Assembly (NCBI GenBank): GCA_028284765.1
Contig: JANQRA010000007.1
Span: 1 to 64,000 of the forward strand
Origin: Acidimicrobiia bacterium
GTDB taxonomy: Bacteria > Actinomycetota > Acidimicrobiia > Spongiisociales > ZC4RG35
Direction: 5' to 3'
Length of the DNA: 64,000 nt
How positions within the stretch are numbered: position 1 is the first letter of the stretch; each line of letters opens with the position of its first letter. The notes under the pieces are model-generated. The model was not told the DNA's origin and did not search any database. It saw nothing but the letters and a program-made list of their open reading frames with translations. The position numbers and the translations under genes are program-made. Positions 6,909 to 64,000 of the stretch are shown in pieces.

Positions 6909-9900
6909 TTAGATGGTGATCGCGGGCAGCTCTGCTGCCTTCATCTTCTCGTTGAAGCTGTCGAGTTCCGGTCCCAGCAGTCCGTCGAGAGCCTCGAGCT
7001 GCTGGTCGATCTCGGATGAGTACTGCTCGGCCACGGCAATAGCTTGCGTTGTGGGTCGTGAGTCGGCACTGGAGATGATGCTGATCACGGAAGACAGCTT
7101 CTCATTGAGTCGCGCCCGTTCGTTGAGGCCGAAGGTGTCGGAGTGATCACCCGGCACGATCAACTCCGCCTCGACTTCATCCAACTTCTCCATCAGGGAA
7201 GTGGCCGAATCAGACTCGGTTGAACCGATGTCGGGTCGATCTCGCCACGCCTGAAGCTGAGAACGCACGGAGCGGAGTTTGTTGACGCCTTCGTGAGCCT
7301 CAGAGATCTTGTCCCGAATAGCGAGGAGCGCCTCCAGCTGTTGTTCGAGCGCCTCCTGAGTCACTTCGGAGCGGGGGTCGTTGACCACTTCGAATTCCGC
7401 TGACTCGGCGTGTTCGCCCACCGTGAGTCGCACCTGATAGGTGCCCGGAGCGACCATCGGGCCGACGTTCGCCTCCCCGGCGAGCTTGTTGCCCGGCACC
7501 CGGGTTGATCCGTCGTAGCGAAGATCCCAGACGAACCTGTTGACGCCTGGGTTGACCGTTATCCACGGACCCGGAGACGCACCCTTTTTGTCGTCGCTGA
7601 GATCGTCGTAGCCCTCCGGCTTGGTGCCGAACGCTCGAATCAACGACCCGCCAGCATCGAGAATCTCGAGTTGGACCTCACCGGGTTCCTTGGCCAGGTG
7701 GTAGTAAATCATGGCTCCGGCTGGTGCGGACTCCCCAGCGTCGACGAACTCCCGCTTCACCTGGCCGGTTTCGTCGAGTGACGCCTCGAAGGTGGCCGTC
7801 TTACCAAGCGAAACCCAGTAGTCCTTGCCCTCGGTGGTGATCCACTGCCAGAAGAGATCGGGGAGAACTCGCCAGGCGGCCCTCGGTTGGAACAACGTTG
7901 GCTCGTCGTCTCCCGTCAAGATCTGACGCAGAGGGGTGAGGTCGTCCATGATCCAGAACGATCTTCCGTGGGTGCCCAACACCAGGTCAGATCCCTTGAC
8001 TTCAATGTCGTAGATCGGAGTCACTGGGAGGTTCGAATCCCAGTGGGTCCAGGTCGCGCCATCGTCGTGTGAGACATACAGACCCGTTTCGGTCCCGACG
8101 TAGAGGAGCCCCTCAACTTCGGGGTCACATCTGATCACCCGCACAAAGTCGTCTTCGGGGATGCCGCTACCGGTGATGTCTTCCCATGTCTCGCCGTAGT
8201 CGTTCGTCCGGTACAGATACGGCCGGTAGTCGTCGAGCTTGTACTTCGTGGCAGCGACGTAAACCGTTCCGGCTGCGTGAGGCGATGGCTCGACGGTCCT
8301 GATGAATGCCCAATCCGGCACATCGGGGGGAGTGACGTTGTTCCACGTTTCGCCTCCGTCTCGGGTCATATGGACGAGTCCGTCATCGGATCCGGCCCAC
8401 ATCACTCCGGGTTCGAGTGAGCACTCGCGAAGGGTCGCGACAGTGCAGTAATGCTCAGCGCCGCTGGTGTCCTTCGTAATCGGTCCTCCAGAAGCCTGCA
8501 GCTTCTCGGGGTCGTTCCTCGACAGATCAGGACTGATCGCTTCCCAGCTGAGGCCCTCATCGGTCGTCCTGAAGACCACGTTGCCGGCTGTATAGAGAAC
8601 ACCGCTGTCATGGGGTGAGAACAGGATTGGGAAAGTCCAAGGAAATCGATACTTGAGCGCACCTGGGCCGATACCGCCATGAGCTTCGGGGTAGACGTTG
8701 ACCAGTTGGATCTGTCCGCTGCGATGGTTGTAACGCTGCAACGCGCCGCCACCACCGGGGGAACTTCCTACGGCCCCAACGAACACGATGTTGTGGTCGT
8801 CTGGGTGAACTGCGACAAATCCGCTTTCTCCTGAACCGGCCGCGTAGCAATCTGCCCAAGTGATGGCACCGTCGTTGGCCCCGCTCGGGACAGCGATGCT
8901 CGAGTTGTCCTGTTGGGTCCCGTAGACGTGATAGAAGGGCTCGCGATTGTCAGTGGTGACCGTGTAGAACTGGGCGGTCAACTGGTTGTAGATCGTTGAC
9001 CACGAGTCGCCGGCGTTGAATGACACATTGGCCCCGCCGTCGTTGGCTTGCACCATTCGTTGGTTGTCGTTGGGATCGATCCAGAGGTCATGGTTGTCGC
9101 CATGGGGTGTCCCGATGCGGTCGAAGGTGCGACCACCGTCGTGCGATCGCCACATCATGAGGTTGTTCACGTAGACCGTGTCTGCGTCCTGGGTGTCGGC
9201 AAAAACGTGCATGTAATACCAGGGCCGGAAACGGAGCTTGGTCTCCTCGTTGACCAGCGACCAGGACTCCCCGAAGTCATCGGACCGATAGAGACCCGGT
9301 CCTTTTGAGGCTTCGATCAGTGCCCAAACGCGACCTGACTTGACCGGGGAGGCTGTGACACCGATCTTGCCGATGATCGCGTCCTGCGGCAGTCCCTTGT
9401 TACGGGTGATATCGACCCACGTGTCGCCACCGTCGGTCGACTTCCAGAGACCGCTATCGGGACCGCCAGAGCTGAGCTCCCAGAAGTTCCGGTGTGTTTC
9501 CCAGATCGAGGCGTAGATCACCTCGGGATGGCGGGGATCGAAGGAGATGTCGACGGCGCCGGCACCGTCCGACTTGTGGAGTACATGCTCCCAGGTGTCA
9601 CCACCGTCCGTCGACTTGAAAATGCCTCGCTGCTCGTTGGTGCCGAAGGCGTGTCCTAAAGCAGCGACGAACACGATGTCCGGGTTCTTGGGGTGGATTC
9701 TGATCTCGCCGATGTGCCGGGTGTCGGATAGACCCTTGTGCACCCACGTTTGACCGCCGTCACCGGATCGGTAGATGCCGTCGCCATGGCTGACGTCGAT
9801 CCGGATGGTGCTCTCGCCCATCCCGGCGTAGATCACGTTGGGGTCAGATTCGGAGACTGCGAGGGCTCCGACCGAGGATGTTGCGAGGTAGCCATCGCTG

Positions 9901-14261: not shown

Positions 14262-15176
14262 TCATCGTTCGGGTCGATGGAGTTCCAGAGACTCGCCCCA
14301 GACGTTTAAGCGAGCAGCGTTCCAATCCTCCGCTTGGCGTTCCTCGATAGCAAAGACGAAACCGTCCTCTTGATGATGAGCGATGCTGTGGCCGTCCCGA
14401 GTGTCTTCCACGGTCCAGTCGGCATCTCGCATCATCTCGAAGGCGACCCGCGAATCCTCGGCCAGAAGATGGACAACACCGATTTCGGACTCGCCGGACA
14501 CCCAGGGATGGCCGAATCGACGTTCGTACTCAGATGGCCTGATCCATCGGAACCGGTGTAGTCCGAGGTCGAACCCTGCTTCACGGACTGACTCAGAGAC
14601 TCCGTTCGTGCCAAATGTGGCGGCCCAATCGCGGCAACGTTGAGTTGGCTCTTCGCTGACCAGTGTCACGCCTCCAAGTCCAAAGACCGTGTTGGGGGCC
14701 ACCTGCATGAATCGTCTCATGGCTGGGTTGGGGTAGTAGGACGTGAGGACGAAGCAGTCGGCGCCCTCGAGGCCGGGGACCGGCATCTCGCAGAAGTCCG
14801 GTGGATCGGTCGCGGGGGTGGTGGCGAGTCGAAGCATGTCAGGAGCCGGAAGGTCCACGCCACGAGCAGACCATCGATCGTGTAGTGCAACTGTGTCGTC
14901 GCTGTAGAAGCCAAGGCCGTATGGTCGCCATCGCTCGGAGGCCCGCCTGAGCGCATCCGGTGCCTCCGCCTCGAATCGAGCTGAGTCGTCTACGCAAAGG
15001 AGCTCCAGGTATTCAGGCCAAAGATTGATGAACCCGTTCCTCAGCCCGGGCTCCCATTCGGCGATGTGATCTGACACGAGGAAGCCGGCTTTCTGGTACC
15101 GATCCAACGCCGTTTCGACTCTCCTTACGTTCGCGAACGTCAGTACATGGTCGAGACGCAGACTTGGTGTCGCCAT
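14262..15176 (-). CDS. VOC-superfamily (glyoxalase-like domain) protein
   Basis: The start is the ATG at complement 15174-15176, 9 bp after GGAGGA, giving 304 residues; an upstream ATG adds 8. LRLDHVLTFANVRRVETALDRYQKAGF and YLELLCVDD near the N-terminus match the large glyoxalase-like (two-module VOC) family. The second module around residues 160-215 contains FGLGGVTLVSEEP. Substrate is unknown. It is a single gene, divergent from the siderophore-type importer. Confidence 0.75.
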   Translation of the reverse strand: MATPSLRLDHVLTFANVRRVETALDRYQKAGFLVSDHIAEWEPGLRNGFINLWPEYLELLCVDDSARFEAEAPDALRRASERWRPYGLGFYSDDTVALHDRWSARGVDLPAPDMLRLATTPATDPPDFCEMPVPGLEGADCFVLTSYYPNPAMRRFMQVAPNTVFGLGGVTLVSEEPTQRCRDWAATFGTNGVSESVREAGFDLGLHRFRWIRPSEYERRFGHPWVSGESEIGVVHLLAEDSRVAFEMMRDADWTVEDTRDGHSIAHHQEDGFVFAIEERQAEDWNAARLNVWGESLELHRPER

Positions 15177-32302: not shown

Positions 32303-32375
32303 GGGGAGAGTTGAACTGGAGCTGATTTCAGCCGAATATGGCGATATGAACCCCGGGTTTCGGGACAGGGCGGGG

Positions 32376-46500: not shown

Positions 46501-47208
46501 TCAGTCGACTACGTGGACGACGATGACGGTGATGTTGTCGACCCCGCCCGCGGCGTTCGCCTTTTCGATGAGAGCCCAGACTGCTTCTTCGGGTGTGCCA
46601 TCTGAGAGGATCTCGGCGATCTCGTCGTCAGGGACCATCTCGGTGAGTCCGTCAGAGCAGATCAGGATCTTGTCGCCGACCTCGAAGTCGATGGGAATCT
46701 CGTCCACATTGACGAAACGAGTGAGGCCCAGGGTGCGGGTGAGCATGTGTCGATGGGGGTGGACCGCGGCCTCCTCAGGGCTGAGCTGTCCGATAGCCAC
46801 ATATTCAGCGGCGACTGTGTGATCACTCGTCAGCTGAAGAAACTGACCCGCCTCATTCATGATGTATGCGCGGCTGTCACCGACGTGGCCGAACACACCG
46901 CGATCGCCATCGATGACCAGGAGAGTCATGGTGGTCCCCATGCCTTCGAGCGAGGGTTCGCGTGCCACTTCTTCCCGTATCGCTCGATTGCCGGCTGCAA
47001 CCCGGTCGCCGGGACTCAAGTCGGCAGAAGCTGAGGCGTTGATTGCGATACGGGATGCCACCTCACCTGCGACATGGCCACCCATGCCGTCGGCGACTAC
47101 CAGGACGGCGGAATCTTCGGTTTCGCCGCTCGACGTGGGAAAGACCGCGTCTTCGTTTTGCTCACGAACCATGCCTTTGTGGCTGCCGGTAGCCCAGATG
47201 TACCTCAT
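46501..47208 (-). CDS. pstP: PP2C-family Ser/Thr phosphatase
   Basis: This 235-residue PPM phosphatase has the metal-binding motifs MVREQNEDAV, VVADGMGGHVAGE, FGHVGDSRAY, LICSDGLTEMV and GGVDNITVIVV. No TM or extracellular tail follows, so it is shorter than mycobacterial PstP and probably cytosolic. It reverses PknB phosphorylation. It overlaps fhaB by 4 bp. Confidence 0.95.
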   Translation of the reverse strand: MRYIWATGSHKGMVREQNEDAVFPTSSGETEDSAVLVVADGMGGHVAGEVASRIAINASASADLSPGDRVAAGNRAIREEVAREPSLEGMGTTMTLLVIDGDRGVFGHVGDSRAYIMNEAGQFLQLTSDHTVAAEYVAIGQLSPEEAAVHPHRHMLTRTLGLTRFVNVDEIPIDFEVGDKILICSDGLTEMVPDDEIAEILSDGTPEEAVWALIEKANAAGGVDNITVIVVHVVD

Positions 47209-47615
47209 CGGACCTCCATCACGGTCTTGCCGACTTGCACGGTGTCTCCGCGACGTAGCGGAGCCGGCGCTGAGATGCGGCGCCCGTTGACATAAGTCCC
47301 ATTGGTACTGCCCAGATCGTGGAGCATCAACCCGTTCTCCTGTGCCACGAGTCGCAGATGGAAGTCGGAAGCGTAGGGGTCGTCGAGGACATAGTCTGCC
47401 TCGTCCGACCTCCCGAGGACGGTCACGTCGCTGACCTTGAGCTCGTCGCCCTGCTGATTCTCGGACTTCACGAAGAGCAATCGACTGCCCTTCTTCCGTT
47501 CCTGACGTACGGAGATTCCGAGATGCGTACCGATGGCGCGAGCGACTTGCCAGACGAACAGGTAGACGAGACCGAGGAAGATCAACCGGAGAAGGGCAAG
47601 GATGATGTCGGGCAT
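47205..47615 (-). CDS. fhaB: FHA-domain protein FhaB (FipA-type)
   Basis: This 136-residue protein has an N-terminal TM (LRLIFLGLVYLFVWQVARAI) and a C-terminal FHA domain with LGRSDEADYVLDDPYASDFHLRL and GSTNGTYVNGRRI. The FHA domain binds phospho-Thr on PknB targets. In mycobacteria FhaB links phosphorylation to division and wall synthesis. It overlaps fhaA by one base. A 52-bp piece of it (47259-47310) is repeated at 60058-60109. Confidence 0.95.
   Translation of the reverse strand: MPDIILALLRLIFLGLVYLFVWQVARAIGTHLGISVRQERKKGSRLLFVKSENQQGDELKVSDVTVLGRSDEADYVLDDPYASDFHLRLVAQENGLMLHDLGSTNGTYVNGRRISAPAPLRRGDTVQVGKTVMEVR
47259..47310 (-). repeat. fhaB segment with a second copy at 60058-60109
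   Basis: This is the parent copy of a 52-bp direct repeat lying within the FHA coding region (about residues 102-119 of FhaB). The second copy differs at one position (47266 G versus 60065 T) and sits 18 bp after a tRNA-Ser gene. Similarity decays just outside both ends. Confidence 0.8.
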
Positions 47616-48418: not shown

Positions 48419-48428
<10 letters not shown>

Positions 48429-48450
48429 AAGGGGACTGTTTTGTAACCCT
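48419..48450 (+). repeat. Direct repeat, copy 1 (tRNA-Leu 3' end and flank)
   Basis: These 32 bp begin in the last bases of tRNA-Leu (GCCCACCA) and run to GTAACCCT. Copy 2 at 49086-49117 matches at 29 of 32 positions. The last 12 bp (48439-48450) also occur inverted at 49065-49076. The pair encloses a single unknown gene, as attachment-site repeats enclose an inserted element. Confidence 0.7.
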
Positions 48451-48464
48451 GGGAGACTGGGCGC

Positions 48465-49016
48465 GTGCGCTCGACCGTTCTACATGAGTCAATCGACGAG
48501 TCAGACCTCGTGTTCTCCTTTCCCATCAAGGCGCGTGAAGCCGCTACTTCCGTAGTCTCTCGTCTTCCCCATGCAGAAACTCACCCGGTCGGCCGAATAC
48601 CGATTCAGCTCGCGGGTGAGAGTCTTTTCCTGCCGTATCGGATCTACAACGAACCGATCGACGAACCATCGGATCGTATTCTCAGAACGATCCATCACTG
48701 CCTGTATTCATGCCATCACGACGGACATGTCAGGGAGGCTTCGATCGCACGGGCAATATCTATCAGCGAGACCCTGGTCGTCCCTTTTGTGATCCTCTTG
48801 CTCAGCGGATACCCGATCGAGATTCACAAGCGAATTGCGCTTAGCTTGGCGAATTCCAGTCTGCGTGATGAAGCCTTCAACAGGTTTTCGGCGAACAACC
48901 CGGAATTCATGGCCCTTGCTCACTCGCGAGCGTTGTCCTACCACGCCGTCTACTACCGGAGCCTGGCGAGGAACGACTACCCGGCTCTGCGCCTCCTCGA
49001 GAGCTGGTCGCCGTAG
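48465..49016 (+). CDS. Hypothetical protein between the tRNA-Leu repeats
   Basis: The GTG at 48465, with GGGAG about 9 bp upstream, gives 183 residues. The product is mostly soluble, with a hydrophobic stretch (SETLVVPFVILLLSGYPI) and a His/Cys-rich piece IHHCLYSCHHDGH that could bind metal. It is unlike any family I know. It is the only gene between the two direct repeats and may be cargo of a small insertion. Confidence 0.55.
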   Translation: MRSTVLHESIDESDLVFSFPIKAREAATSVVSRLPHAETHPVGRIPIQLAGESLFLPYRIYNEPIDEPSDRILRTIHHCLYSCHHDGHVREASIARAISISETLVVPFVILLLSGYPIEIHKRIALSLANSSLRDEAFNRFSANNPEFMALAHSRALSYHAVYYRSLARNDYPALRLLESWSP

Positions 49017-49085
49017 GCACGCACCTCCGATGTCAAGCTGGGTTGCCGTCCCAACCGAGCTCAAGGGTTACAAAAGTGTGTCGTT

Positions 49086-49117
49086 TCGCCCACGAGAGGG
49101 GACTGTTCTGTAACCCT
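49086..49117 (+). repeat. Direct repeat, copy 2
   Basis: These 32 bp match the tRNA-Leu 3' end and flank at 48419-48450 with three differences (48427, 48429 and 48441 side). Immediately before it, AGGGTTACAAAA (49065-49076) is the exact reverse complement of the last 12 bp of copy 1. No tRNA remnant other than the GCCCAC end is present. Confidence 0.7.
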
Positions 49118-49217
49118 CCCTGCGGGGAGAGGTCACATGCACTTCCGATTTCGCTGCCAAGGCGAAACCCCCGGGGCTAGTAGAGGCGTGAGCGCTACTT
49201 ACTCGTAGGGTTGACGT

Positions 49218-49634
49218 ATGGCCCAGTTCAGGAGAAGGCAGCAGCCCGAGGCGATCACCGTCATTGACTGCGGCGGTGATGGCAAGGCCATTGAGGTAAA
49301 GGGTGAGGCCACCTATCAGAAGGCCCTTGAACGCATCGCTGGGCCGAAGACTGCGGAAGGTGGTGCACCTGATGTGGTGGCCTACCTGGAGCCTGACCCT
49401 TCCAATCCGTATGACTCCAACGCAGTCAAAGTGTTCGTGACTGGTCTTCTGGTCGGCTACATCAATCGTGATGACGCTGAATGGGTGCAGAAGACGTGCC
49501 TCGATATTCAGTGTGAGGAAGGCGGCAAGTTGGTGGCCATGAAAGGGCAGCTAGTTGGTGGGTGGGATAGAGGCGGGGGCGATGAGGGGAGTTGGGGCAT
49601 ATGGCTTTGGTATGACCCTGACCTTTTCCAGTAG
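49218..49634 (+). CDS. HIRAN-domain protein
   Basis: This 138-residue protein contains the HIRAN core: VKGEATYQKALERIAG, VVAYLEPDPSNPYDSNAVKVFVTGLLVGYINRDDAEWVQ. HIRAN domains bind DNA ends or recognise damaged or stalled-fork DNA and often lie in phages and mobile elements. Here it stands alone with no helicase or nuclease part. Its position just after the tRNA-Leu repeat supports an accessory origin. Confidence 0.82.
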   Translation: MAQFRRRQQPEAITVIDCGGDGKAIEVKGEATYQKALERIAGPKTAEGGAPDVVAYLEPDPSNPYDSNAVKVFVTGLLVGYINRDDAEWVQKTCLDIQCEEGGKLVAMKGQLVGGWDRGGGDEGSWGIWLWYDPDLFQ

Positions 49635-49724
49635 GAAGTGACATGGTGTCCGACATGAAGCTGCAGGGGATGGCCATGCACACATCACGGCAGCAGTGCA
49701 TCCGGCTTCTCAAGACTCTTATGC

Positions 49725-49973
49725 ATGCGTCCTGAAAATCGCCACGGCAGGCTTCACCTTGGTGCTCGGGGATGCGCCTTGGCTGAGGCGGCAAGCTTCG
49801 ACAAGCTCATCGCCGTTGGCCTTTGTGCGGCATCACTGGTGGCCGGTCTCTTAGGCCTACGGCTGTCAGCTGATGGGTTGAGGCTCCGTGATGGTGACTA
49901 TCGGCCCTTGTTGCCACACCTGGTTAGGGCTAGGAATGACACTGTGTCTGCCGAAGGAGCACCATGGGTGTGA
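49725..49973 (+). CDS. Possible small membrane protein, low support
   Basis: This frame encodes up to 82 residues. The part from a TTG at 49779 contains one hydrophobic helix (LIAVGLCAASLVAGLLGLRL) after a short amphipathic start. It ends overlapping the GlsB-like gene by 10 bp. The N-terminal portion from ATG 49725 looks non-coding. Otherwise the 329-bp stretch 49635-49963 shows nothing else I can assign. Confidence 0.25.
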   Translation: MRPENRHGRLHLGARGCALAEAASFDKLIAVGLCAASLVAGLLGLRLSADGLRLRDGDYRPLLPHLVRARNDTVSAEGAPWV

Positions 49974-50254
49974 TTGTGGGTCTGATTCTGTTCCTGCCCA
50001 TTGCAGCCATTACAGGCGGTGTGGCTGGAGCAATCGTGGGTGGTGGCCGAGAGGATCGCCCGATCTGGCAGAACGCAGTAATCGGCATTGTCGGATGGAT
50101 GGTTGCCTGGGGCATCATCGAAGCGGCCACTGGCAACGGTTTTGAGGAAGTGACCCTTGGCTCTGCACTGCTTGCGCTCCTGGGATCAGCTCTCTTCATC
50201 CTTCTAGATGAGTGGTGGGAGCGACGTAAAGACTCGGCATCCGTATCGGGTTGA
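49964..50254 (+). CDS. GlsB/YeaQ/YmgE-like small membrane protein
   Basis: This 96-residue protein has AAGGAG before its ATG and three TM helices with Gly-rich character (VIVGLILFLPIAAITGGVAGAIVGGG, NAVIGIVGWMVAWGIIEA, TLGSALLALLGSALFILL). The layout matches transglycosylase-associated/GlsB-type stress membrane proteins, whose function is not established. It lies in the accessory patch downstream of tRNA-Leu. Confidence 0.7.
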   Translation: MGVIVGLILFLPIAAITGGVAGAIVGGGREDRPIWQNAVIGIVGWMVAWGIIEAATGNGFEEVTLGSALLALLGSALFILLDEWWERRKDSASVSG

Positions 50255-50314
50255 ACTGTCAACACAGAAGGCGCCAGCATCTTTCCGCAGAGGTACCGAA
50301 TATCGTGACCAGCA

Positions 50315-50794
50315 ATGGGAAACACACGATTGGAAGGTCAGGGATCGCCCACCGGTCTGAAGCGTTGGTTCCTTCGCGCCCCCATCGGCCTCTACAGGGC
50401 TCGGCTCGGATTCTTGTTTGGCAATCGGTTCCTGATGCTCGAGCACGTCGGAAGGAAGTCAGGCCAGACACGACGGACAGTCCTCGAAGTGGTGGTGAAC
50501 CGACCTGATGCCGTATTCGTTGCGGCAGGTTGGGGCGCCAAGGCTCAATGGTTCGCCAATCTGAAAGCCAATCCTCAAGCCCGCTATCACCTCGGTTCGA
50601 AGGTGTACGACACAGACGCTGTTGTGGTGGACCAAGAGGAGGCAGCTCGACTGATGGCGGAGTACGCGGATAGTCATCCCAAAGCCTTGGACCGATTGTC
50701 CAAGTTCATACTCGACGATCCACCCGACACACCAAAGGCACAGGCAGAAGCAGTGGCGGCCGTGGTTCCCTTGGTGAAGCTTCCCAAGGGATAG
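50315..50794 (+). CDS. Ddn-like deazaflavin(F420)-dependent nitroreductase family protein
   Basis: This 159-residue protein shows the split-barrel Ddn pattern: GLYRARLGFLFGNRFLMLEHVGRKSGQTRRTVLEVV and FVAAGWGAKAQWFANLKANPQARYHLG. These match actinobacterial F420-dependent quinone/nitro reductases. The N-terminus is short, with residues 12-26 forming the membrane-near helix of the family. The natural substrate is unknown. Confidence 0.88.
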   Translation: MGNTRLEGQGSPTGLKRWFLRAPIGLYRARLGFLFGNRFLMLEHVGRKSGQTRRTVLEVVVNRPDAVFVAAGWGAKAQWFANLKANPQARYHLGSKVYDTDAVVVDQEEAARLMAEYADSHPKALDRLSKFILDDPPDTPKAQAEAVAAVVPLVKLPKG

Positions 50795-50831
50795 AGGGGC
50801 TGCTCGGCTCAATCCCGATACGGGTTCGCCT

Positions 50832-51794
50832 CTAAGAGGTTGATCCCCACTTCAGAACGCGCATCGCTCTCAGTGTGATCCACCGGCTTGGCTGACCTTC
50901 AGGGTCATCGACGTCGAAATGGATCGCACCTGGCCACACTTTCTCCCGCTTCCACCGACCGTCGCTGCCCTTGCGATTCTCCACAAGGTCGAGAGCGCGT
51001 TCGACACGTTGGTCAGGCCGGCGAGTAGTCCTCAAGTGGTCCAGGCCACGCAAAACGTCGTAGTGCCACCAGTTCGGAAACGAGAAACGGGCCCATGCTT
51101 CGTTGATCAGCTCTCCGTTGGAGAGACGGAGCATCAATTGACGCTCGAGTAGGTATTCCTCGCCTCTCTCAATGGCTTCGTCGAGATCGCTGGCCTTTTC
51201 GCTGCGTTCTCGAAAGGCGGCCAGACCCTCGATCACCGCGATCGTCGTATCAAACGAGCCGCGTTTCGAGCCGTTCTCCTGTTCGCAGTTCCAGCCGCCG
51301 TCTTCCATCTGCTCTCCGAGCAGGCGGTCGACAATTGATGTGACATCAACGCCGAAGTAGGAACCGTTGGCCACGGTCTGACCGTTGACACACGGTTCGA
51401 CTTCCCCTTCGAAGAACGGCTCACCGGCGTACTCCCAACTGGCGTTGTCTTTGACGAGCGCCACTGCCTGGAGCACGTCCGACGATTCAGGGTCAACGCC
51501 GAACCAACGCAACTGGGAAAGCGCCCAGGTCGTTGCTGTCCACGGTTGCCCGAGCAGTCTTCCATCCGGGCCGCGCTCGAGATTCGAGGTATCTGACGGG
51601 AAGTAGGCGCCATTGGCCCAGTAGCCGTCGGGGTCCTGGAGTTCGAGGAGCCGGGCTCCCCAGCCCTCCGTAGCCACACGTCGGCGCTCGGCGGCGACCT
51701 CCTCGGCAGCCGAACCCTCGAGGTGTTGCATGACCTGCCATCTGATCGCAGGGTCGGAGTCGAGCAGCCAGGTGAGAGCGTCCATGTGCGCCAT
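50832..51794 (-). CDS. Squalene-cyclase/prenyltransferase-like alpha-toroid protein
   Basis: This 320-residue protein is built of helical hairpin repeats with aromatic motifs typical of the alpha/alpha toroid: LQDPDGYWANGAYF, EQMEDGGWNCEQENGSKRGSFDTTIAVIEGL, and GSDGRWKREKVWPGAIHFD. It lacks a recognisable DxDD cyclase motif, and is about half the length of squalene-hopene cyclase. It may be a degradative or binding homologue. It lies 18 bp beyond the divergent TetR's stop on the same strand. Confidence 0.72.
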   Translation of the reverse strand: MAHMDALTWLLDSDPAIRWQVMQHLEGSAAEEVAAERRRVATEGWGARLLELQDPDGYWANGAYFPSDTSNLERGPDGRLLGQPWTATTWALSQLRWFGVDPESSDVLQAVALVKDNASWEYAGEPFFEGEVEPCVNGQTVANGSYFGVDVTSIVDRLLGEQMEDGGWNCEQENGSKRGSFDTTIAVIEGLAAFRERSEKASDLDEAIERGEEYLLERQLMLRLSNGELINEAWARFSFPNWWHYDVLRGLDHLRTTRRPDQRVERALDLVENRKGSDGRWKREKVWPGAIHFDVDDPEGQPSRWITLRAMRVLKWGSTS

Positions 51795-51812
51795 TCTCGC
51801 GCCTTGGATTCG

Positions 51813-52400
51813 TCAGGAGCTTGCGCCAACGAGTCTTCGGAACAGTTCTTTCACATCCGAGATTGCCTTCTCCTGGTCGCTGTGGTGAAAGCAGGGGCCT
51901 ATGTAGCCGTGGAGCAGGAAGTGGATCAGGACGTCGAGGTCCAACTCCTTGAGATCGAACTCCCCGGCTTCGACTCCGCCCTCGACTATTCGTCCCAGAA
52001 GGTCGCGAGCGCCCGCCATGGGTTCTTCTGCATTCGAAGGGATCTCATGGAAGACGGCGTGATACAAGCCATGGTTGTCCAGCTCGAAACGCATCCAGTG
52101 CTCGGCGACTGCGTCCAGCTTCTGAGCCCAGCTGAGTTCGTTGCTATCAGCGACCTCCGCGGGGTGTTCAAGCATTTGATTCCAGATGTCGGCTTGCAGG
52201 CCCGCCAGCAGCTCGTCGCGTGATCGGAAGTGGAGGTAGATCGAGCCTTTGGCGACGCCCGCTACTTCCGCGACCCGGGCAATCGACGTGTCGCCAAGTC
52301 CTTCCTCGAGAGCGAGCTTTGTCGCTGCATCGAGTATCTGCCGTCTTCTGACATCTGCCGGCTGATAGCGGCCTTCGCTTTTGGAGGTTTCGGTGGGCAT
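51813..52400 (-). CDS. TetR-family regulator
   Basis: The ATG at complement 52398-52400 gives 195 residues; longer starts would run into the operator. The HTH is clear (RRRQILDAATKLALEEGLGDTSIARVAEVAGVAKGSIYLHFRSRDELLAGLQAD). The C-terminal domain is alpha-helical with a His/Asp-rich end. It is divergent from the methyltransferase operon and shares the 52433-52449 operator region, so it probably represses both. Confidence 0.92.
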   Translation of the reverse strand: MPTETSKSEGRYQPADVRRRQILDAATKLALEEGLGDTSIARVAEVAGVAKGSIYLHFRSRDELLAGLQADIWNQMLEHPAEVADSNELSWAQKLDAVAEHWMRFELDNHGLYHAVFHEIPSNAEEPMAGARDLLGRIVEGGVEAGEFDLKELDLDVLIHFLLHGYIGPCFHHSDQEKAISDVKELFRRLVGASS

Positions 52401-52422
52401 TTCGATGTGGAGGTTAACGCGC

Positions 52423-52451
52423 TTGACAAGCGAATGACCAGTGGTCATTAT
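52423..52451 (+). promoter_or_regulatory. Promoter and TetR operator of the methyltransferase operon
   Basis: The -35 TTGACA (52423-52428) and -10 CATTAT (52446-52451) are 17 bp apart. The spacer holds AATGACCA-G-TGGTCATT (52433-52449), a perfect 8-bp-arm palindrome. Two further AGTGACC repeats follow at 52452 and 52465. A TetR dimer here would block the rightward promoter toward 52516. Confidence 0.75.
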
Positions 52452-52515
52452 AGTGACCATCAGTCAGTGACCGATAGTCAGTCGACTGGTTTATCCATAT
52501 ACGAGAGGTTCGGAA

Positions 52516-52797
52516 GTGAATACTTCAACTAGTCCAACAGCACAGGAGCTGGTCAAGTCGATCGTCGATGTGCTTGACGAGATCCGAGATACGAACGGCC
52601 TGCCTGTCGCCACGAGAGAGAGCTGTGCACACTCGGTACGAGCAATCCACGAGAGCGTGCATGGGTTGTCGCTCTGGCTACGCGAGCTTCTGGAGTGGGC
52701 ACCGCTGGCTCCTGAAACGAGGGGACGCGCAGTTCGACTTGCACGGGAGCTGCATGAGGCCGATCAGAACTTCCATCCCGCACTCGAGGTCGCCTGA
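52516..52797 (+). CDS. Small helical protein heading the methyltransferase operon
   Basis: The GTG at 52516 follows GAGAGG. The 93-residue product is soluble and almost wholly helical (AQELVKSIVDVLDEIRDTNGL, HSVRAIHESVHGLSLWLREL, GRAVRLARELHEADQNFH). No family is recognised. It is first in a run of four or five co-directional genes, 2 bp before the methyltransferase. Confidence 0.65.
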   Translation: MNTSTSPTAQELVKSIVDVLDEIRDTNGLPVATRESCAHSVRAIHESVHGLSLWLRELLEWAPLAPETRGRAVRLARELHEADQNFHPALEVA

Positions 52798-52799
52798 AT

Positions 52800-53393
52800 A
52801 TGCGTCCTTCACAAATCGGAAAGGCTCTGGGACACCTGTGGTCTTCCAGTGTCAACAGCGATGCCGTGGCTCAACTCGGCTTGGAGCCCGGCGAAACTGT
52901 CCTTGATATCGGTGCCGGGTTCGGCCCATCGGCTTTGGAAGCTGCCGCCGCAGTTGGTCCCGCAGGCTCGGTTGTTGCGGTCGACCCGTCCCGAGTAATG
53001 CGACTCGTGCTGGCTGTGAGACGAACTCTCGTCGGCAACGCCCGACAGATCACAGTATTGAAAGGGTCAGGTGAAGACGTCCCGCTACCTGATCGGTCCG
53101 TCGACGCAGCGATTTCCATGAACGTCATGCATCATCTGGACAACTTGAAGCTCACGGCGGCAGAGCTGTACAGGGTGATGCATCCTGGTGGGAGGGTCCT
53201 CCTCATTGACGAGGACTTCGGCCATGAGGACCACAGCTTCCACGCCGATCACGGCTCGGGTCCGCACTTCATCGATCCAGCCGACATGGTTTCAGCTCTG
53301 GAGGCGGCCGGGTTCGTGGATGCTGGCGAGAGTCATGAAGACGTGGGAGGCGAGATCTCATTTGTCATCCGCGCCAGAAAGGGGACGGAGTGA
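52800..53393 (+). CDS. Class I SAM-dependent methyltransferase
   Basis: This 197-residue Rossmann-type enzyme has motif I VLDIGAGFGPSALEAA, the acidic VVAVDPSRV after beta-2, GEDVPLPDRSVDAAISMNVMHHL and the GGRVLLIDEDFG strand. The family transfers methyl from S-adenosylmethionine to small molecules or proteins; acceptor unknown. It overlaps the next gene by 4 bp. Confidence 0.92.
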   Translation: MRPSQIGKALGHLWSSSVNSDAVAQLGLEPGETVLDIGAGFGPSALEAAAAVGPAGSVVAVDPSRVMRLVLAVRRTLVGNARQITVLKGSGEDVPLPDRSVDAAISMNVMHHLDNLKLTAAELYRVMHPGGRVLLIDEDFGHEDHSFHADHGSGPHFIDPADMVSALEAAGFVDAGESHEDVGGEISFVIRARKGTE

Positions 53394-54013
53394 ATCCTTC
53401 GACTCGCACGCTGTGGGATCTGCAGGAGCGCCATCCCGGCGACCGGAAGCGACTCTTCACCGCGGTTCGGCAAGCCATAGGTGGAGAAGCCGCGCTCTAT
53501 CCGGGGTCGTTCGTCGATGTCGCCGCCTCTTTCGCCTACCCGGCTGTCACCTACGTCGACATTGACAAGCGGACCCCACGGTTCTTCGACGACCGGGAGG
53601 GAGTTGGCGAGATCATCACTGCTGAAGGTGGCCGAGATGACGCCAGTTTCACATTCATCCACGGTGACTACACGACCCCGTTGCAGTTGGATGACGAGTC
53701 CTTCGATGTCCTCATTTCTCTGTATGCAGGCTTGGTGTCCGATCACTGCACCAGATACCTGAAGGTAGGAGGCCACCTGCTCGCCAATCCGAGCCACGGT
53801 GACGTCGCCTTGGCGACGACCGACGATCGATATCAGCTCGCGGCGGTAGTCAAAGCCAAGACGGGTGGATACTCGGTGGATTCAGGTTCACTGGATGAGT
53901 ACCTGGTTCCGAAGAAGGGACCTGCACCGGAGGCTGATGCCATCAGGGTCAATCAGAGGGGTGTCGGCTACACAAAGTCGGCCTTTGCCTACTTGTTTCG
54001 TCGGGTGAGTTGA
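53390..54013 (+). CDS. Methyltransferase-like protein with degenerate SAM motif
   Basis: This 207-residue GTG-started protein has the class I methyltransferase layout: SFVDVAASFAYPAVTYVDIDKR, FTFIHGDYTTPLQL, FDVLISLYAGLVSDHCTRYLKVGGHLLAN. The Gly-rich SAM loop is replaced by VAASFAYP, although the acidic residue after beta-2 (YVDID) is kept. It may not bind SAM normally and might act with the preceding active enzyme. It overlaps both neighbours (GTGA and TTGA). Confidence 0.72.
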   Translation: MNPSTRTLWDLQERHPGDRKRLFTAVRQAIGGEAALYPGSFVDVAASFAYPAVTYVDIDKRTPRFFDDREGVGEIITAEGGRDDASFTFIHGDYTTPLQLDDESFDVLISLYAGLVSDHCTRYLKVGGHLLANPSHGDVALATTDDRYQLAAVVKAKTGGYSVDSGSLDEYLVPKKGPAPEADAIRVNQRGVGYTKSAFAYLFRRVS

Positions 54014-54726
54014 CCCGACCCGCTCGGTCTGTGACCTACCTTGTGCGGGTGAGCCACATCGGGACGTTGCGCGAGAAGCCGCTCCACGCCTCAGTCAAGG
54101 CCTGGTACTCCGAACCAGGTGACCTCATCGAGCACCCGGTCGACAGATACGTCATCGACATCGTTCGTGGCGACCTTTTGATCGAGGTGCAGACTGGCGG
54201 GTTCTCCTCGATGAAGGCGAAGCTGGCATCACTTCTCGACGGCGGACATCGGGTGCGGATTGTCCATCCGATAGCAAGCGAGAAGTGGATCGTTCGATGT
54301 GATGATGACGGGACGATCCTCGACCGGAGGAAGTCACCGAAGCGAGGCGATGTCCTCGATGTCTTCTCGGAACTCGTCGCGTTTCCGCAAGTCCTCAACG
54401 ATCCCCTCGTGGAACTCGAGGTTCTGATGGTCAAAGTCGACGAGATGAGGGTGCACCAGCCGGGAAAGGCCTGGCGACGACGGGGGTGGGTGGTGGCTGA
54501 GCGTCATTTGCTGGAGGTCGACTCGGCGCAACGAATCGACGATCCCCTCTCGATGCTCCCCTCGGAGTTGCCCAGCCAGTTCACTACGAGGGACCTGGCT
54601 GAGGCGACGGTAAGACCCATGCGATCTGCCCAGCAGATGGTCTATTGCCTGCGTGAGTCCGGCAGTCTCGAAACGGTTGGGAAGGTCGGCAACAGCCTGC
54701 TCTATCGGTCTCCGCACTGCTCATAG
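54010..54726 (+). CDS. Uncharacterised family with PD-(D/E)XK-like motif
   Basis: The chosen TTG at 54010 overlaps the upstream stop and gives 238 residues; GTG at 54049 (MSHIGTLREKPL) is an equally good start. The N-terminal half contains Asp-VRGDLLIE-x-Gln followed by SSMKAKL, a D...ExQ...K pattern like a restriction-nuclease fold. The middle holds KSPKRGDVLDVFSELVAFP and the C-terminus looks like a winged helix (FTTRDLAEATVRP, AQQMVYCLRESGSLETVGKVGNSLLY). Activity is inferred, not shown. Confidence 0.65.
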   Translation: MTRPARSVTYLVRVSHIGTLREKPLHASVKAWYSEPGDLIEHPVDRYVIDIVRGDLLIEVQTGGFSSMKAKLASLLDGGHRVRIVHPIASEKWIVRCDDDGTILDRRKSPKRGDVLDVFSELVAFPQVLNDPLVELEVLMVKVDEMRVHQPGKAWRRRGWVVAERHLLEVDSAQRIDDPLSMLPSELPSQFTTRDLAEATVRPMRSAQQMVYCLRESGSLETVGKVGNSLLYRSPHCS

Positions 54727-54756
54727 CGACGTCTGACCTGCGAAAATTGATGGCTC

Positions 54757-59290: not shown

Positions 59291-59722
59291 AAGCGCTCGC
59301 GACTCTTCGGCCATCACACCTTCCACGAGGTCGATGTGGTGGTTCAGCCGCTTGTCCTGGGGGATGTTGTAGAGCGACCACGCCGCACCGGCCTTGAAAT
59401 CAGCGGCTCCGTAAACGATCCGATCGAGGCGGGCCCAGACTGCAGCTCCGGCACACATCGGACAGGGCTCCAGCGTGACATAGAGAGTGTGGCCGGTCAG
59501 GCGCCAATCACCGACCTCTCTTGCTCTTCGCGACAGAACGAGCATTTCGGCATGGGCCGTGGGGTCGCGAAGCTCCTCACGCCGGTTGCGGTCGGCGGCT
59601 ACGACTTCGCCCTTGCCGTCGACCAATACTGCGCCCACGGGTACGTCGCCCTCCTCAGCAGCCTCGGTGGCAAGGCTCAGCGCAAGCTCCATCGGCTGCT
59701 TTTTCGAAATGGGCTCAGTCAC
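59261..59722 (-). CDS. tadA: tRNA-specific adenosine deaminase
   Basis: This 153-residue zinc deaminase has the catalytic His57-Ala-Glu59 and Cys87-Pro-Met-Cys90 motif (EPCPMCAGA). Length and the FKAGAAWSLYNIPQD loop match TadA, which edits A34 to inosine in tRNA-Arg(ACG). It lies next to two tRNA-Ser genes. Its 3' end overlaps the MFS gene tail to tail by 30 bp. Confidence 0.95.
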   Translation of the reverse strand: MTEPISKKQPMELALSLATEAAEEGDVPVGAVLVDGKGEVVAADRNRREELRDPTAHAEMLVLSRRAREVGDWRLTGHTLYVTLEPCPMCAGAAVWARLDRIVYGAADFKAGAAWSLYNIPQDKRLNHHIDLVEGVMAEESRALLEDFFGDKR

Positions 59723-59787
59723 GGTCGGGCATTATCCTTCATCGCTCCCGTCAGGTCAGATGGGGCCTGTCCTGCGGACAGGATTCC

Positions 59788-59881
59788 GGAGGGATCGCAT
59801 AGTCTGGCCTAGTGCGCGGCACTGGAAATGCCGTTGGGGGTTTGCGCCCCCTCGAGGGTTCAAATCCCTCTCCCTCCGCCA
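59788..59881 (+). tRNA. tRNA-Ser (GGA)
   Basis: This is a class II tRNA. The acceptor is GGAGGGA/TCCCTCC with discriminator G (59878), the anticodon loop CTGGAAA carries GGA, the variable arm is long and Gly-rich, and the T-arm has GGTTCAAATCC. CCA (59879-59881) is encoded. It forms a pair with the tRNA-Ser(CGA) 67 bp downstream. Confidence 0.97.
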
Positions 59882-59948
59882 CAATCCGCAAACCCGGGGT
59901 TGATATCGCCGGATATGGCGGATATCGGATCAACTACAACTGAATCTT

Positions 59949-60039
59949 GGAGGGGTCGCATAGTCTGGTCTAGTGCGCGGCACTCGAAATGCCGTAGGGG
60001 GCTGACGTCTCCTCGTGGGTTCGAATCCCACCCCCTCCG
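59949..60039 (+). tRNA. tRNA-Ser (CGA)
   Basis: This is a 91-nt class II tRNA with acceptor GGAGGGG/CCCCTCC, discriminator G and anticodon loop CTCGAAA carrying CGA. Most of the body is near-identical to the preceding tRNA-Ser(GGA), including the TCGCATAGTCTGG D-arm. CCA is not fully encoded. An fhaB-like fragment starts 18 bp after its 3' end. Confidence 0.97.
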
Positions 60040-60057
60040 CCCCGAGCTTCCACGCAA

Positions 60058-60109
60058 CGGAGCCTGCGCTGAGATGCGGCGCCCGTTGACATAAGTCCCA
60101 TTGGTACTG
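60058..60109 (-). repeat. fhaB fragment copy downstream of tRNA-Ser
   Basis: This stretch repeats fhaB coding DNA (47259-47310) at 51 of 52 positions in the same orientation relative to the plus strand. A looser match extends about 8 bp further on the left. It is cut at both ends and not expressed as FhaB. It sits between tRNA-Ser(CGA) and a possible recombinase remnant. Confidence 0.8.
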
Positions 60110-60235
60110 GGCGTTCTGGATGTTCTGCACCTTGTCCCACGTGTCCTGTTCGATGATTGGTTCTACCTCAAACGCAAATGGGTTTCCGCCAGCGGCTGGG
60201 GTTTTCCGAGATGCGAAGGCATGTCCACGAAAGTG
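60110..60235 (-). pseudogene. Possible serine-recombinase remnant
   Basis: A minus-strand frame running from 60235 into the fhaB-like copy encodes GNPFAFEVEPIIEQDTWDKVQNIQNAQ. The pattern P-x-I-I-x6-W-x2-V-Q resembles the end of the recombinase domain of large serine recombinases. Only about 40 residues are involved and no catalytic domain is present. The rest of 60040-60569 (60236-60569 especially) contains no gene I can support. Confidence 0.3.
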
Positions 60236-60569
60236 TCATGGCTGTCACCCTCAATGCCCCAATGTGGCGGTCGTCATGTGGCTTTGGTCGCAGGTCAGTT
60301 CCTCGTGGTGCTGTTGAATCTCCAATGGTCTTCACATGCATTCGGGAGGTTTGGCATCCGTGTGCCTTGCAGGGCATTGATCAATCCAATGACTGACCAA
60401 CCCTGTTCTTCTAGTCTGCAAGTCTTATGGTAAGTGTGACGTCAGACTTCACACTGAGGTTGGGGCAATCATTACACCCTGGAGGCTATGCCGTTGTACC
60501 TGAGCGACTTTATCCCACCCGCAAGCCGGCATCGCTGGCTTCTCTGCTGCCCTCCGAGCTGCACAACGG

Positions 60570-62114
60570 ATGAGTGATTATCCGCCGTTCGGCCTCGCCA
60601 AAGGTGCGATCGACCACCCGGACCGGCTCGCCGTCTCGGACGACTTCGGCAGCTCGCTCACTTACCGTGAGCTAAACGCTCTGGCTAATCGGACGATTCG
60701 GGCTTTGAACAGCCACGGAGTCCAGGCCGGGGATGTCATCGCGCTTCTCCTGGAAAATCGGGTTGAGACAATCCTTCTTCACCAGGCCGCGTATCGCGGC
60801 GGATTCCTGTTCACGCCTCTGAACCCGAGGCTCAAGCCAATCGAACTCGAGTTCTTGCTGAGCGACTCGGGTGCCAAGGTCCTCTTTGCCGACTCTGCCT
60901 ATCTGGACCTTGCATGCGAAGTTGTGCCTGACGGTATCGAAGTTGTGGTCGTTGGAGGGAGCGTCGAAGTCAATGACCTCGATATCTTCATCGAAGACTC
61001 CAGTGACTCTGCAGTTGAACATCGCTTCGGGTCAGTCCTGTCCTACACGTCGGGGACGAGCGGAGTTCCCAAGGCGGTGATTCGCGACCGCACCCAGCCC
61101 TCACCCGAAGCCCTTGCGGCCTTTGTCGGCTTCGGAGAGCGACTCGGCTTCAATCCCAAACACGACAGGTTTCTGACGACCGCGCCGCTATATCACGGCG
61201 GCCCGCTCATCTCCGCGATCCATGTAATCAACCTCCAGGGTTCCATTTATCTCATGCGTCGCTTCGCCGCCGATGATGTTCTCGATCGGATCGAGCGGCT
61301 GGGAATCACCTCCGCTTACATGGTCCCCACCATGTATCACCGGCTCATCTCCTTGCCCGAGAAGCGAAAGGCGGAGGCGGACTTGAGCAGCCTGAACTCG
61401 GTTATGCACACAGGTGCTCCTTGCCCTGTCCATCTCAAACAAGCCATGATCGATTGGTTTGGCCCGATCCTCTACGATTGTTACGCCGCTACTGAGAGCT
61501 TCGGCACCTATACGGTTTGCACCAGTGAGCAGTGGTTGGCCCATCCCGGCACCGTCGGAAAACCCGAACACGGCGTGATAACGATTCGCGACCAAAACGA
61601 GGTTCCTCTGCCTACTGGCGAGATTGGGCTCATCTACGCTCGTACCCTTCCCGGCGTCGCTCCATTTCGTTATCGGGGAGACGAGGAGAAGACCGACAGG
61701 GCCTACTCGTCTCACGGCGACTACACAGTCGGCGACATGGGATACCTAGACGACGATGGCTTCTTGTTCCTCACCGGCAGAGCGAGCGACATGATTATCT
61801 CCGGCGGCGTCAATGTCTATCCGGCTGAAGTGGAGCAGGTGCTGATGCGCCATGAATCGGTCGGTGACGTAGCTGTCTTTGGGGTTCCCGACGACGAGTG
61901 GGGTGAGCGCGTGGTCGCAGTAGTCGAGTTAGCAGACGGAGTCGCCGGGGAAGACCAACTTGGAGCGAATCTCATCGCTTACTGCCGAGAGCAAATCGCC
62001 GCGTTCAAGTGCCCCAGAGAGGTTCGTGTCGTCCCCGAACTTGGTCGGGATCCGTCTGGCAAGATGCGGAAAGGACTGCTTCGCGACCGACTGTTCCACA
62101 GCGGCAGCGCCTGA
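60570..62114 (+). CDS. AMP-binding acyl-CoA synthetase/ligase
   Basis: This 514-residue adenylate-forming enzyme has the P-loop LSYTSGTSGVPKAV, the YAATESFGTY motif, the hinge DMGYLDDDGFLFLTGRASDMIISGGVNVYPAEVE and the catalytic Lys near the C-terminus (DPSGKMRKGLL). It activates a carboxylic acid to acyl-CoA through acyl-AMP in the cytosol. Substrate is unknown. The next gene is a MerR regulator on the same strand. Confidence 0.95.
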   Translation: MSDYPPFGLAKGAIDHPDRLAVSDDFGSSLTYRELNALANRTIRALNSHGVQAGDVIALLLENRVETILLHQAAYRGGFLFTPLNPRLKPIELEFLLSDSGAKVLFADSAYLDLACEVVPDGIEVVVVGGSVEVNDLDIFIEDSSDSAVEHRFGSVLSYTSGTSGVPKAVIRDRTQPSPEALAAFVGFGERLGFNPKHDRFLTTAPLYHGGPLISAIHVINLQGSIYLMRRFAADDVLDRIERLGITSAYMVPTMYHRLISLPEKRKAEADLSSLNSVMHTGAPCPVHLKQAMIDWFGPILYDCYAATESFGTYTVCTSEQWLAHPGTVGKPEHGVITIRDQNEVPLPTGEIGLIYARTLPGVAPFRYRGDEEKTDRAYSSHGDYTVGDMGYLDDDGFLFLTGRASDMIISGGVNVYPAEVEQVLMRHESVGDVAVFGVPDDEWGERVVAVVELADGVAGEDQLGANLIAYCREQIAAFKCPREVRVVPELGRDPSGKMRKGLLRDRLFHSGSA

Positions 62115-62316
62115 ACTTGGTCCGCCCGCCCAGATAAGGCGTCATCACCTACGAGGAGCGTTGCGTTCACCGCTCCGCTCTCAGCGGTTGCACAGCGGCT
62201 AGAACATGGGTCAACCGGAATCGAAATGCCACCAACGTGCATCCAACGGTGTTGGGAGATCGACTCTTCCTAAGGGTAGGATCTGGGTCGAGGCACGATG
62301 AAAGGTTAGGAAGCAC

Positions 62317-62976
62317 GTGGTAGCCAAGGATGTTGCGGGCCGCTTGCGAATGAAGGACCTCGTGGAAGCGACGGGGGTGCCAAGGTCCACGATCCATTAC
62401 TACGTCTCAGAGGAACTGATCCCAGCTCCAGAGCGGCCCAAACCCAATGTTGCTCTGTACGATCCGATTTCCGTCGACCTCATCCGCTACATAAGGGATG
62501 CGCAAAGACTTCATCGCTATCCGCTTGACTGGATCCGCACAAACGTGAAGCACATTCTGGCCGGTCTGCCTCCCGACGATCTGCTTCATCTGAATGAGCG
62601 AGTACTTGGACCAACGCGCCCTCTCGTTGACATCCAGGAGGCCAAGGAGCGGCTCGGTGACGCCGACGGGACACTTGAGCGTTTCGTGTCGCTCAACTTG
62701 GTTCACCCCACGTCCGATGGTGAGTTCGATGAGTTTGATATCAGAGTGGCTGAAGTTCTTCGCAGGGCTGAGGAAGCCGGTCTCCCGGCTGAGGCCTTCA
62801 CAGGTGTCGTGGACGCCCTCCGAGAAGTGGAAGCTCAGACAGCAGCGATAGCGACGGAGTACGTTGACAGCCCGATGCCGATGAGCTCGGAGCGAGCCAT
62901 GCTTCTCGTGGAAATCATGGGGCGACTTCACCCTTACCTACTACGTCGGTTCTTGGAGGAGAGGGAGACCCCTTGA
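62317..62976 (+). CDS. MerR-family transcriptional regulator
   Basis: This 219-residue protein has a GTG start with AGGAAG upstream. The N-terminal MerR HTH is RMKDLVEATGVPRSTIHYYVSEELIPAPERP-NVALYDPISVDLIRYIRDAQRLHRYPLDWI. The C-terminal domain is helical and ligand-type, without metal Cys. It may control the upstream ligase or the DUF1116 gene, but no site is evident. The 202-bp gap 62115-62316 otherwise shows nothing. Confidence 0.82.
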   Translation: MVAKDVAGRLRMKDLVEATGVPRSTIHYYVSEELIPAPERPKPNVALYDPISVDLIRYIRDAQRLHRYPLDWIRTNVKHILAGLPPDDLLHLNERVLGPTRPLVDIQEAKERLGDADGTLERFVSLNLVHPTSDGEFDEFDIRVAEVLRRAEEAGLPAEAFTGVVDALREVEAQTAAIATEYVDSPMPMSSERAMLLVEIMGRLHPYLLRRFLEERETP

Positions 62977-63021
62977 GCCAAGCCAGCTGACATCATGGTA
63001 GGGCGGCCCCATCAACGTAGG

Positions 63022-64000
63022 TCAGACCTTGTGATCTCGTTCCAGATCCAAGGCGGCTTGCTCAAATAACTCCATGGGGAAGCTGCCCAGATTGGCGCCC
63101 ACCCTTCCCGATCCAGGGATCTTGTCGGCATAACCAGCATTTACGTGTGGGGCAATGGCCGTGCGAGCAATCGCCTTCACCGAGATGCCCAGCGGTGATC
63201 CCAGGAAATCGTCTGCGGGAAGCTGGTATCTAGGGTGTTCGGTGACACAGATCTGGCGCATGCGATCCACCACGTCTTGGGACGCGGCGGCATTCACCCC
63301 GAGCACTTTGGCGAGAGACAGGGAGGCGGTCAGGCTTAGGGCTCCGAGACCGATCGTTTCCGTGATTCCCGAATCACCCATCAGGGGAGCGGCGTCGTCT
63401 TCGGTCTTGCCTTCGATCACCATCATGTTCTTCGGCACCGGGGCTGGCGCCAGATACCAGGTCTTGGGGGTTCCGCTCACTCTGATCCCGGCTTGAACGC
63501 CATTGCCGCAAAGGGCGGTCACGATGCCTGGAGGGCCTTCGGATTCGATCGTATCCGAAATCGCTTTGGCAGCTGCCATAGAGAGTGAGAGGAAGAAGTG
63601 GGGGTTTTCCCGCATGTACCCCAGCGTCGAAGACGAGTCCGCTCCGACCTCCACAAACGCGGGTGCCAGGTAGGCGATGAGACCCTCATTGGCTGCAACG
63701 AGGCGATTGTGCATCTCGTCGCCTCGGCGGAGGGCCTTTGCCTGTAGGGAAACGATGTCGATTGGAGGCATCCTGGCGAAGACACCTCCGAGCACATCGC
63801 TGAACTCAGAGGACAGCCATCGAACTCTGTCCAAGGTCTGAGAGTCGTAGTTGCCAAAGCTCAGCGCCCGGCCCAAACCCTCGACGACTGTTGCAAATGC
63901 CCGCCTTCCACCCTCGCGTTCGACGACAAGAACGGGGACGGTAGGTGAAACGACCCCGGCCAGGGCGCCAACGCCGCTAGCGTCTTGGCAGGAACAGAGG
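63022..64000 (-). CDS. DUF1116 (YlbE/FdrA-associated) protein, 5' end missing
   Basis: The frame is open through the right edge, so the start lies outside; about 326 residues remain. Beyond a TTG sometimes taken as the start, the frame continues with CQDASGVGALAGVVSP and VVEREGGRRAFATVVEGLG, typical of DUF1116. LDRVRWLSSEFSDVLGGVF and SGTPKTWYLAPAPV also fit. DUF1116 proteins are usually encoded with FdrA-like acyl-CoA synthetase and carbamate kinase genes. None of these is visible here, but they may lie to the right. Confidence 0.85.
   Translation of the reverse strand, partial: LCSCQDASGVGALAGVVSPTVPVLVVEREGGRRAFATVVEGLGRALSFGNYDSQTLDRVRWLSSEFSDVLGGVFARMPPIDIVSLQAKALRRGDEMHNRLVAANEGLIAYLAPAFVEVGADSSSTLGYMRENPHFFLSLSMAAAKAISDTIESEGPPGIVTALCGNGVQAGIRVSGTPKTWYLAPAPVPKNMMVIEGKTEDDAAPLMGDSGITETIGLGALSLTASLSLAKVLGVNAAASQDVVDRMRQICVTEHPRYQLPADDFLGSPLGISVKAIARTAIAPHVNAGYADKIPGSGRVGANLGSFPMELFEQAALDLERDHKV

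Follow-up and report, generated by a model that had tools for sequence, protein, structure and literature searches.

A short stray copy of an internal fhaB segment beside tRNA-Ser in an acidimicrobial genome: probably a scar of illegitimate insertion at an island edge

How does a piece of a protein-coding gene come to lie, almost unchanged, in intergenic DNA next to a tRNA gene? The question is raised by a 64,000-nucleotide stretch at the start of a contig (JANQRA010000007.1, here C8) from an Acidimicrobiia bacterium, referred to below as the window. An earlier note, made from the sequence alone, had reported a 52-bp match to fhaB beside tRNA-Ser, 12.8 kb from the gene, and had suggested that it could be either the scar of a mobile element that used fhaB as its attachment site or the product of mis-repair. 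We examined the match itself, its direction and age, the site at which it lies, and the routes by which it may have arrived there.

A near-identical pair within one genome

Pairwise comparison within the window confirmed the match, with 51 of 52 bases identical between 60058-60109 (+) and the fhaB segment 47259-47310 (+), the two stretches lying in direct orientation with a spacing of 12,799 bp (∼12.8 kb). The position beside tRNA-Ser is likewise as claimed, tRNA-Ser(cga) ending at 60042, 15 bp before the copy. A BLAST alignment is longer (58 bp at 94.8% identity, 60052-60109 on the stray side), and the pair has an E-value of 1.2e-18 when the window is searched against itself and of 7.1e-20 in a search of the draft genome, far beyond a chance match. 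Outside the 58 bp, the left flanks agree at 8 of 40 positions and the right flanks at 14 of 40, which is chance level; together with the 51/52 identity, this indicates a patch rather than the remnant of a larger, decayed duplication.

Coordinates of the features discussed, in window numbering unless a contig is given
Feature	Position	Strand	Evidence
Stray copy of internal fhaB segment	60058..60109, similarity reaching 60052	+	51/52 identity, two genomic places
Donor segment inside fhaB, codons 103-119, FHA motif STNGTYVNGRR	47259..47310	-	match to stray copy
fhaB, FHA-domain protein	47205..47615	-	PF00498, E 9.5e-20
tRNA-Ser(cga)	59948..60042	+	ARAGORN, Rfam
attL-like stretch: tRNA-Ser 3' end + 8 flanking bases	60018..60050	+	imperfect repeat at G000:C11:110387-110419, 30/33
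Possible serine-recombinase fragment adjoining copy	60110..60229	-	PF07508, E 0.015, below cut-off
First island genes (AMP-binding enzyme, MerR regulator, AllG)	60570..64000		run to contig end, then on C11

Read by eye in the fhaB frame, the 52-bp piece translates as STNGTYVNGRRISAPAP, and the plus strand of the stray copy is antisense to the fhaB mRNA. The gene, which has fhaA and a PP2C phosphatase gene as neighbours, has its stop codon at 47205-47207; the similarity ends at 47253-47259, 45-51 bp short of it. A search for more copies of the 52 bp, as the earlier note had advised, placed fhaB-like sequence at exactly two sites in the draft genome, the gene and the stray copy, with no third copy found there and leftover matches limited to 15-29 bp (E > 0.7). 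An exact 33-base pattern from the copy had no match in viral_contigs, and no report of this fhaB copy was found in the open-licence literature among the matches listed.

Could the copy be a misjoin? The genome is a 23-contig draft, and the 15 named relatives nearest to it were assembled from metagenomes, which would favour an artefact. Against this, an exact 99-bp overlap between contig ends (C5:1-99 with the final 99 bp of C2) suggests graph assembly with k near 99, so that a 52-bp repeat should not confuse it, and each copy has flanks of its own, with one base setting the two apart; we regard a misjoin as very unlikely.

Short repeats of other kinds provide the background for this pair. An own-genome sample of 469,269 bases (∼16% of the genome) contained 17 pairs with a length of 30 bp or more and an identity of 90% or more, among which the fhaB pair is the longest outside tRNA ends, tandems, palindromes and contig overlaps. 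The other pairs above 50 bp comprise a tRNA-Cys pair (53 bp), a tRNA-Val pair (82 bp), a 69-bp tandem and the 99-bp contig-end overlap, and the two shorter sets of unclassified type are a 35-bp inverted pair at 97% identity (L093:751-785 and 14434-14468) and a 32-bp set (L077, L086 and L092). The relatives also have pairs away from annotated tRNAs, one of 51 bp at 90% and inverted (L065), another of 75 bp at 93% with its copies 186 bp apart (L070), so this genome is not alone in having them; tandem arrays were found in the relatives' loci L056 and L069.

Two side observations concern these repeats. The tRNA-Cys pair is an exact 53-bp duplication that includes the tRNA 3' end (L076:3901-3953 and 8675-8727, on contig C5), 4.7 kb apart; an ORF beside the tRNA ends, by eye, like a tyrosine integrase, and the locus probably represents the remains of an integrated element. 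Small palindrome-like intergenic repeats are dispersed through the genome (59889-59941 with 32309-32360; L093:19241-19278; L076:17430-17465), one copy lying between the window's two tRNA-Ser genes.

Direction and age of the copying

The stray copy was found in none of the 33 other family genomes searched, which are drafts (59-98% complete), making its absence uncertain for any single one. Three of the 33 gave a weak match (84-87% over 30-37 bp), in each case within the fhaB match of that genome. In a base-by-base comparison counted from the stop codon, the fhaB genes of 12 named relatives are identical to the genome's own fhaB at 33-37 of the 52 bases; these 12 represent 12 of 18 loci (L056-L067, with the six more distant loci L068-L073 left out), and some appear to be genomes also present in the other genome set. 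At the sole mismatch of the pair, the copy has T where the genome's own fhaB has G; because the fhaB of all 12 relatives also has G, the change arose in the copy. The gene is the donor and the stray copy the derived side, the direction being from fhaB to the intergenic site.

Confinement of the copy to this genome, combined with its near-identity to the genome's own fhaB, indicates that the lineage copied its own gene recently; judged by these alignments, the copying postdates the divergence from the relatives compared. The earlier note's suggestion of a recent duplication is thereby borne out (51/52 to the genome's own fhaB vs 33-37/52 to those of relatives), while its alternative, selection, neither gained nor lost support. 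An identical sequence in all relatives with no mobile genes, one of the outcomes that it had named as refuting its observation, did not appear, the copy being found in none of the 33 family genomes.

The insertion site and the attachment-site reading

The stray copy begins 16 nt past the end of tRNA-Ser(cga), with 9-15 unrelated bases between the tRNA and the similarity. The 3' end of this tRNA belongs to a 33-bp repeat pair whose members are ∼17.2 kb apart across the junction of contigs C8 and C11; the fhaB similarity opens directly past the window's member, at 60052, and the copy thus lies 1-7 bp beyond the repeat. Contigs C8 and C11 very probably adjoin, since a DUF1028 gene is divided between their ends (domain positions 1-125 at the right end of C8, 130-193 at that of C11); a search for overlapping sequence between these ends gave none. 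The attL/attR-like repeat seems to bound a roughly 17-kb catabolic island reaching from tRNA-Ser(cga) to tRNA-Ser(tga), with the copy at its left edge. Beyond the AMP-binding enzyme, MerR regulator and AllG, the island encodes a cysteine-dioxygenase-like ORF, an L-PSP endoribonuclease-type protein, a rhodanese, luciferase-like proteins, an M20 peptidase, a branched-chain-type ABC transporter and an alpha/beta hydrolase; relatives of AllG occur in two of the 33 other family genomes.

The order Ser(gga)-Ser(cga)-Ser(tga)-Ser(gct) is kept in all nine relatives whose tRNA regions were compared, as is an adjacent deaminase gene, which we take to be the one usually named tadA. The Ser(cga)-Ser(tga) spacer ranges from 41 bp to 6.7 kb in 11 relatives (these nine and two named ones); here, with Ser(tga) and Ser(gct) on C11, separate from the window's contig, it would be ∼18.5 kb if C8 and C11 adjoin. 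On this comparison the Ser(cga)/Ser(tga) junction is a variable insertion hotspot. In one relative (L041, G006:C87), 62 bp of the tRNA-Ser(tga) 3' end occur twice without a mismatch (1713-1774 and 3025-3086, 1.3 kb apart), as would suit an integration hotspot in the Ser cluster.

Immediately beyond the copy lies the stretch that the earlier note had taken for a possible recombinase remnant. Residues 8-37 of the 40 encoded there align to positions 69-98 of the 102 in PF07508, a weak match that scores 16 bits where the cut-off is 21.1. The frame had no match in PHROGs, among solved structures, or, in protein mode, among phages or plasmids; NCBIfam left it unmatched and gave one unrelated match (E 0.11) in another frame. 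Its 39-aa product had no relative in 137 other genomes of the order, and it would be a fragment at best. DNA searches of 59500-61000 against plasmids and of 60043-62120 against phages were also without a match.

Is the copy, then, an attachment scar, deposited next to tRNA-Ser by an element that integrates at fhaB and carried the 52 bp as an attP-like copy? Its position at the margin of an island, where the tRNA 3' end forms an att-like repeat, and its contact with the faint serine-recombinase fragment speak for this, as does the background of repeats: dispersed own-genome pairs above 50 bp other than the fhaB pair, leaving out the tandem and the contig overlap, involve tRNA ends, and duplications of att type are the commonest source of such near-identical pairs in the own-genome sample. 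The stretch between the two copies argues otherwise. It holds fhaA, tRNA-Leu, serS, the deaminase gene and two tRNA-Ser genes in the same order as in relatives, with serS and the deaminase gene present in all 14 relatives' loci searched and fhaA in 12 of them, and because core genes lie in it, the interval cannot be one element, even though ∼6.3 kb of it (48429-54756) is lineage-specific.

This lineage-specific stretch, missing at this place in relatives, runs from the end of tRNA-Leu (48428) to a gene starting at 54757 and encodes a TetR regulator, an F420-type reductase, a HIRAN-domain ORF and a methyltransferase; no integrase was found among the eight ORFs scanned in it. Four of five ORFs tested had no match in the relatives, and the fifth, the methyltransferase, was matched in five of 14 loci, probably by a paralogue, as all five matches lie beyond serS. 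The stretch represents a second variable, tRNA-linked site, ∼1 kb from fhaB. At its edge, a 32-bp repeat (48419-48450 and 49086-49117, 91%) covers the 3' end of tRNA-Leu and the sequence just downstream.

Further points weigh against an attachment scar. The repeat is internal to fhaB and ends before the stop codon, so the gene would not have been restored; a 51/52 match to the genome's own fhaB, set beside the values in the 12 relatives, would need a very close donor; and attachment sites of large serine recombinases share just a few bases. Inspection of the flanks for integrases, another step proposed by the earlier note, yielded none in the scanned ORFs and the one sub-threshold fragment; genome-wide, PF07508 gave nothing at E 0.1, and the five matches to PF00589 all lie on contigs other than C8 and C11. 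With core genes between the repeats, an intragenic piece and no linked integrase, we rejected fhaB as an attachment site as the main reading and consider it unlikely; by its sequence, the actual att-like repeat at the site is the tRNA-Ser 3' end.

Illegitimate insertion as the probable origin

The explanation that we favour, and consider probable, is a one-off, recent, non-homologous copying of a piece of the genome's own fhaB into the junction by tRNA-Ser(cga). A break or rearrangement would have occurred at the island-edge junction just 3' of the tRNA, and ∼52 bp of fhaB, from within the FHA domain, would have been inserted there as filler. The likely route would be illegitimate recombination, either by template switching or by end joining of the break around a fragment that was captured or copied from a template; we infer both this route and its timing relative to the island insertion. 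End joining is plausible, because the genome encodes Ku (E 6.9e-51) and three LigD-type polymerase (LigD Prim-Pol) domains. The junction also seems to carry other debris, in the form of the recombinase-like fragment.

A donor in the same genome and non-homologous flanks, both found here, are what characterizes a short intragenomic illegitimate insertion. To the left of the copy, donor and site match at four of six positions (P ∼0.04 under a simple composition model), in a present-day flank rather than the pre-insertion sequence; to the right there is no run of matches, and the present-day flanks show no clear microhomology. Of the origins proposed in the earlier note, mis-repair is the best remaining explanation, and a likely one.

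The placement of the copy invites two other readings. Read-through from tRNA-Ser(cga) could produce a 3' trailer in which 52 nt pair almost perfectly with the fhaB mRNA and dampen FhaB synthesis; the orientation fits, the copy starts close behind the tRNA, and a search of 59600-60700 gave no terminator-like site. The orientation has an even prior, however, the fold is unremarkable (z 0.13 and -0.32), and only tRNAs scored above the Rfam gathering score, an sX4 match at 59938-60119 being far below threshold (19.4 vs 70 bits). The copy was found in none of the 33 other family genomes, which leaves no relative in which the pairing could be compared. We hold the antisense trailer to be extremely improbable, and give equally little credence to its extension, in which the capture of fhaB would have created a newborn regulator that ties transcription of the tRNA to FhaB, an FHA-domain protein whose gene has a PP2C phosphatase gene next to it.

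Alternatively, cDNA of the fhaB mRNA, perhaps primed by tRNA-Ser, may have been joined to the chromosome; tRNA-primed cDNA would be expected to show this arrangement, with the antisense strand of fhaB behind a tRNA. The unrelated bases that part the tRNA from the copy count against this, and a reverse transcriptase domain (PF00078, RVT_1) was not found in the draft genome; we rate this as the least credible origin of all. The copy has the look of an ordinary, one-off scar rather than of a functional element.

Short illegitimate intragenomic insertions have reportedly been described in Acinetobacter baylyi by Harms et al. (in PNAS, in 2016) under the acronym SPDIR. These reportedly resemble the present case in placing a short own-genome segment at an unrelated site without long homology; here, by contrast, the organism belongs to another phylum and the mechanism is a proposed one. 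The copy also has a likeness to duplications of tRNA 3' ends at attachment sites, represented by the neighbouring 33-bp tRNA-Ser repeat, the 53-bp tRNA-Cys repeat and the 62-bp tRNA-Ser(tga) repeat of a relative, but differs from them in that the fhaB piece is protein-coding, intragenic and flanks no element. In PMC2884548, illegitimate recombination is estimated to have made 41-56% of microdiversity loci in the Escherichia coli alignments of that study; the segments described there are, like this one, short, at variable sites and unexplained by transposition or site-specific recombination, whereas that study compares strains of one species and the present case concerns one genome with an identified donor gene.

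The locus provides a clean, polarised case in which an uncultured actinobacterium with NHEJ proteins carries a short patch of its own gene at the edge of an island. A single case changes little; should such patches turn out to be common, they would illustrate the scattering of coding fragments into intergenic DNA by break repair.
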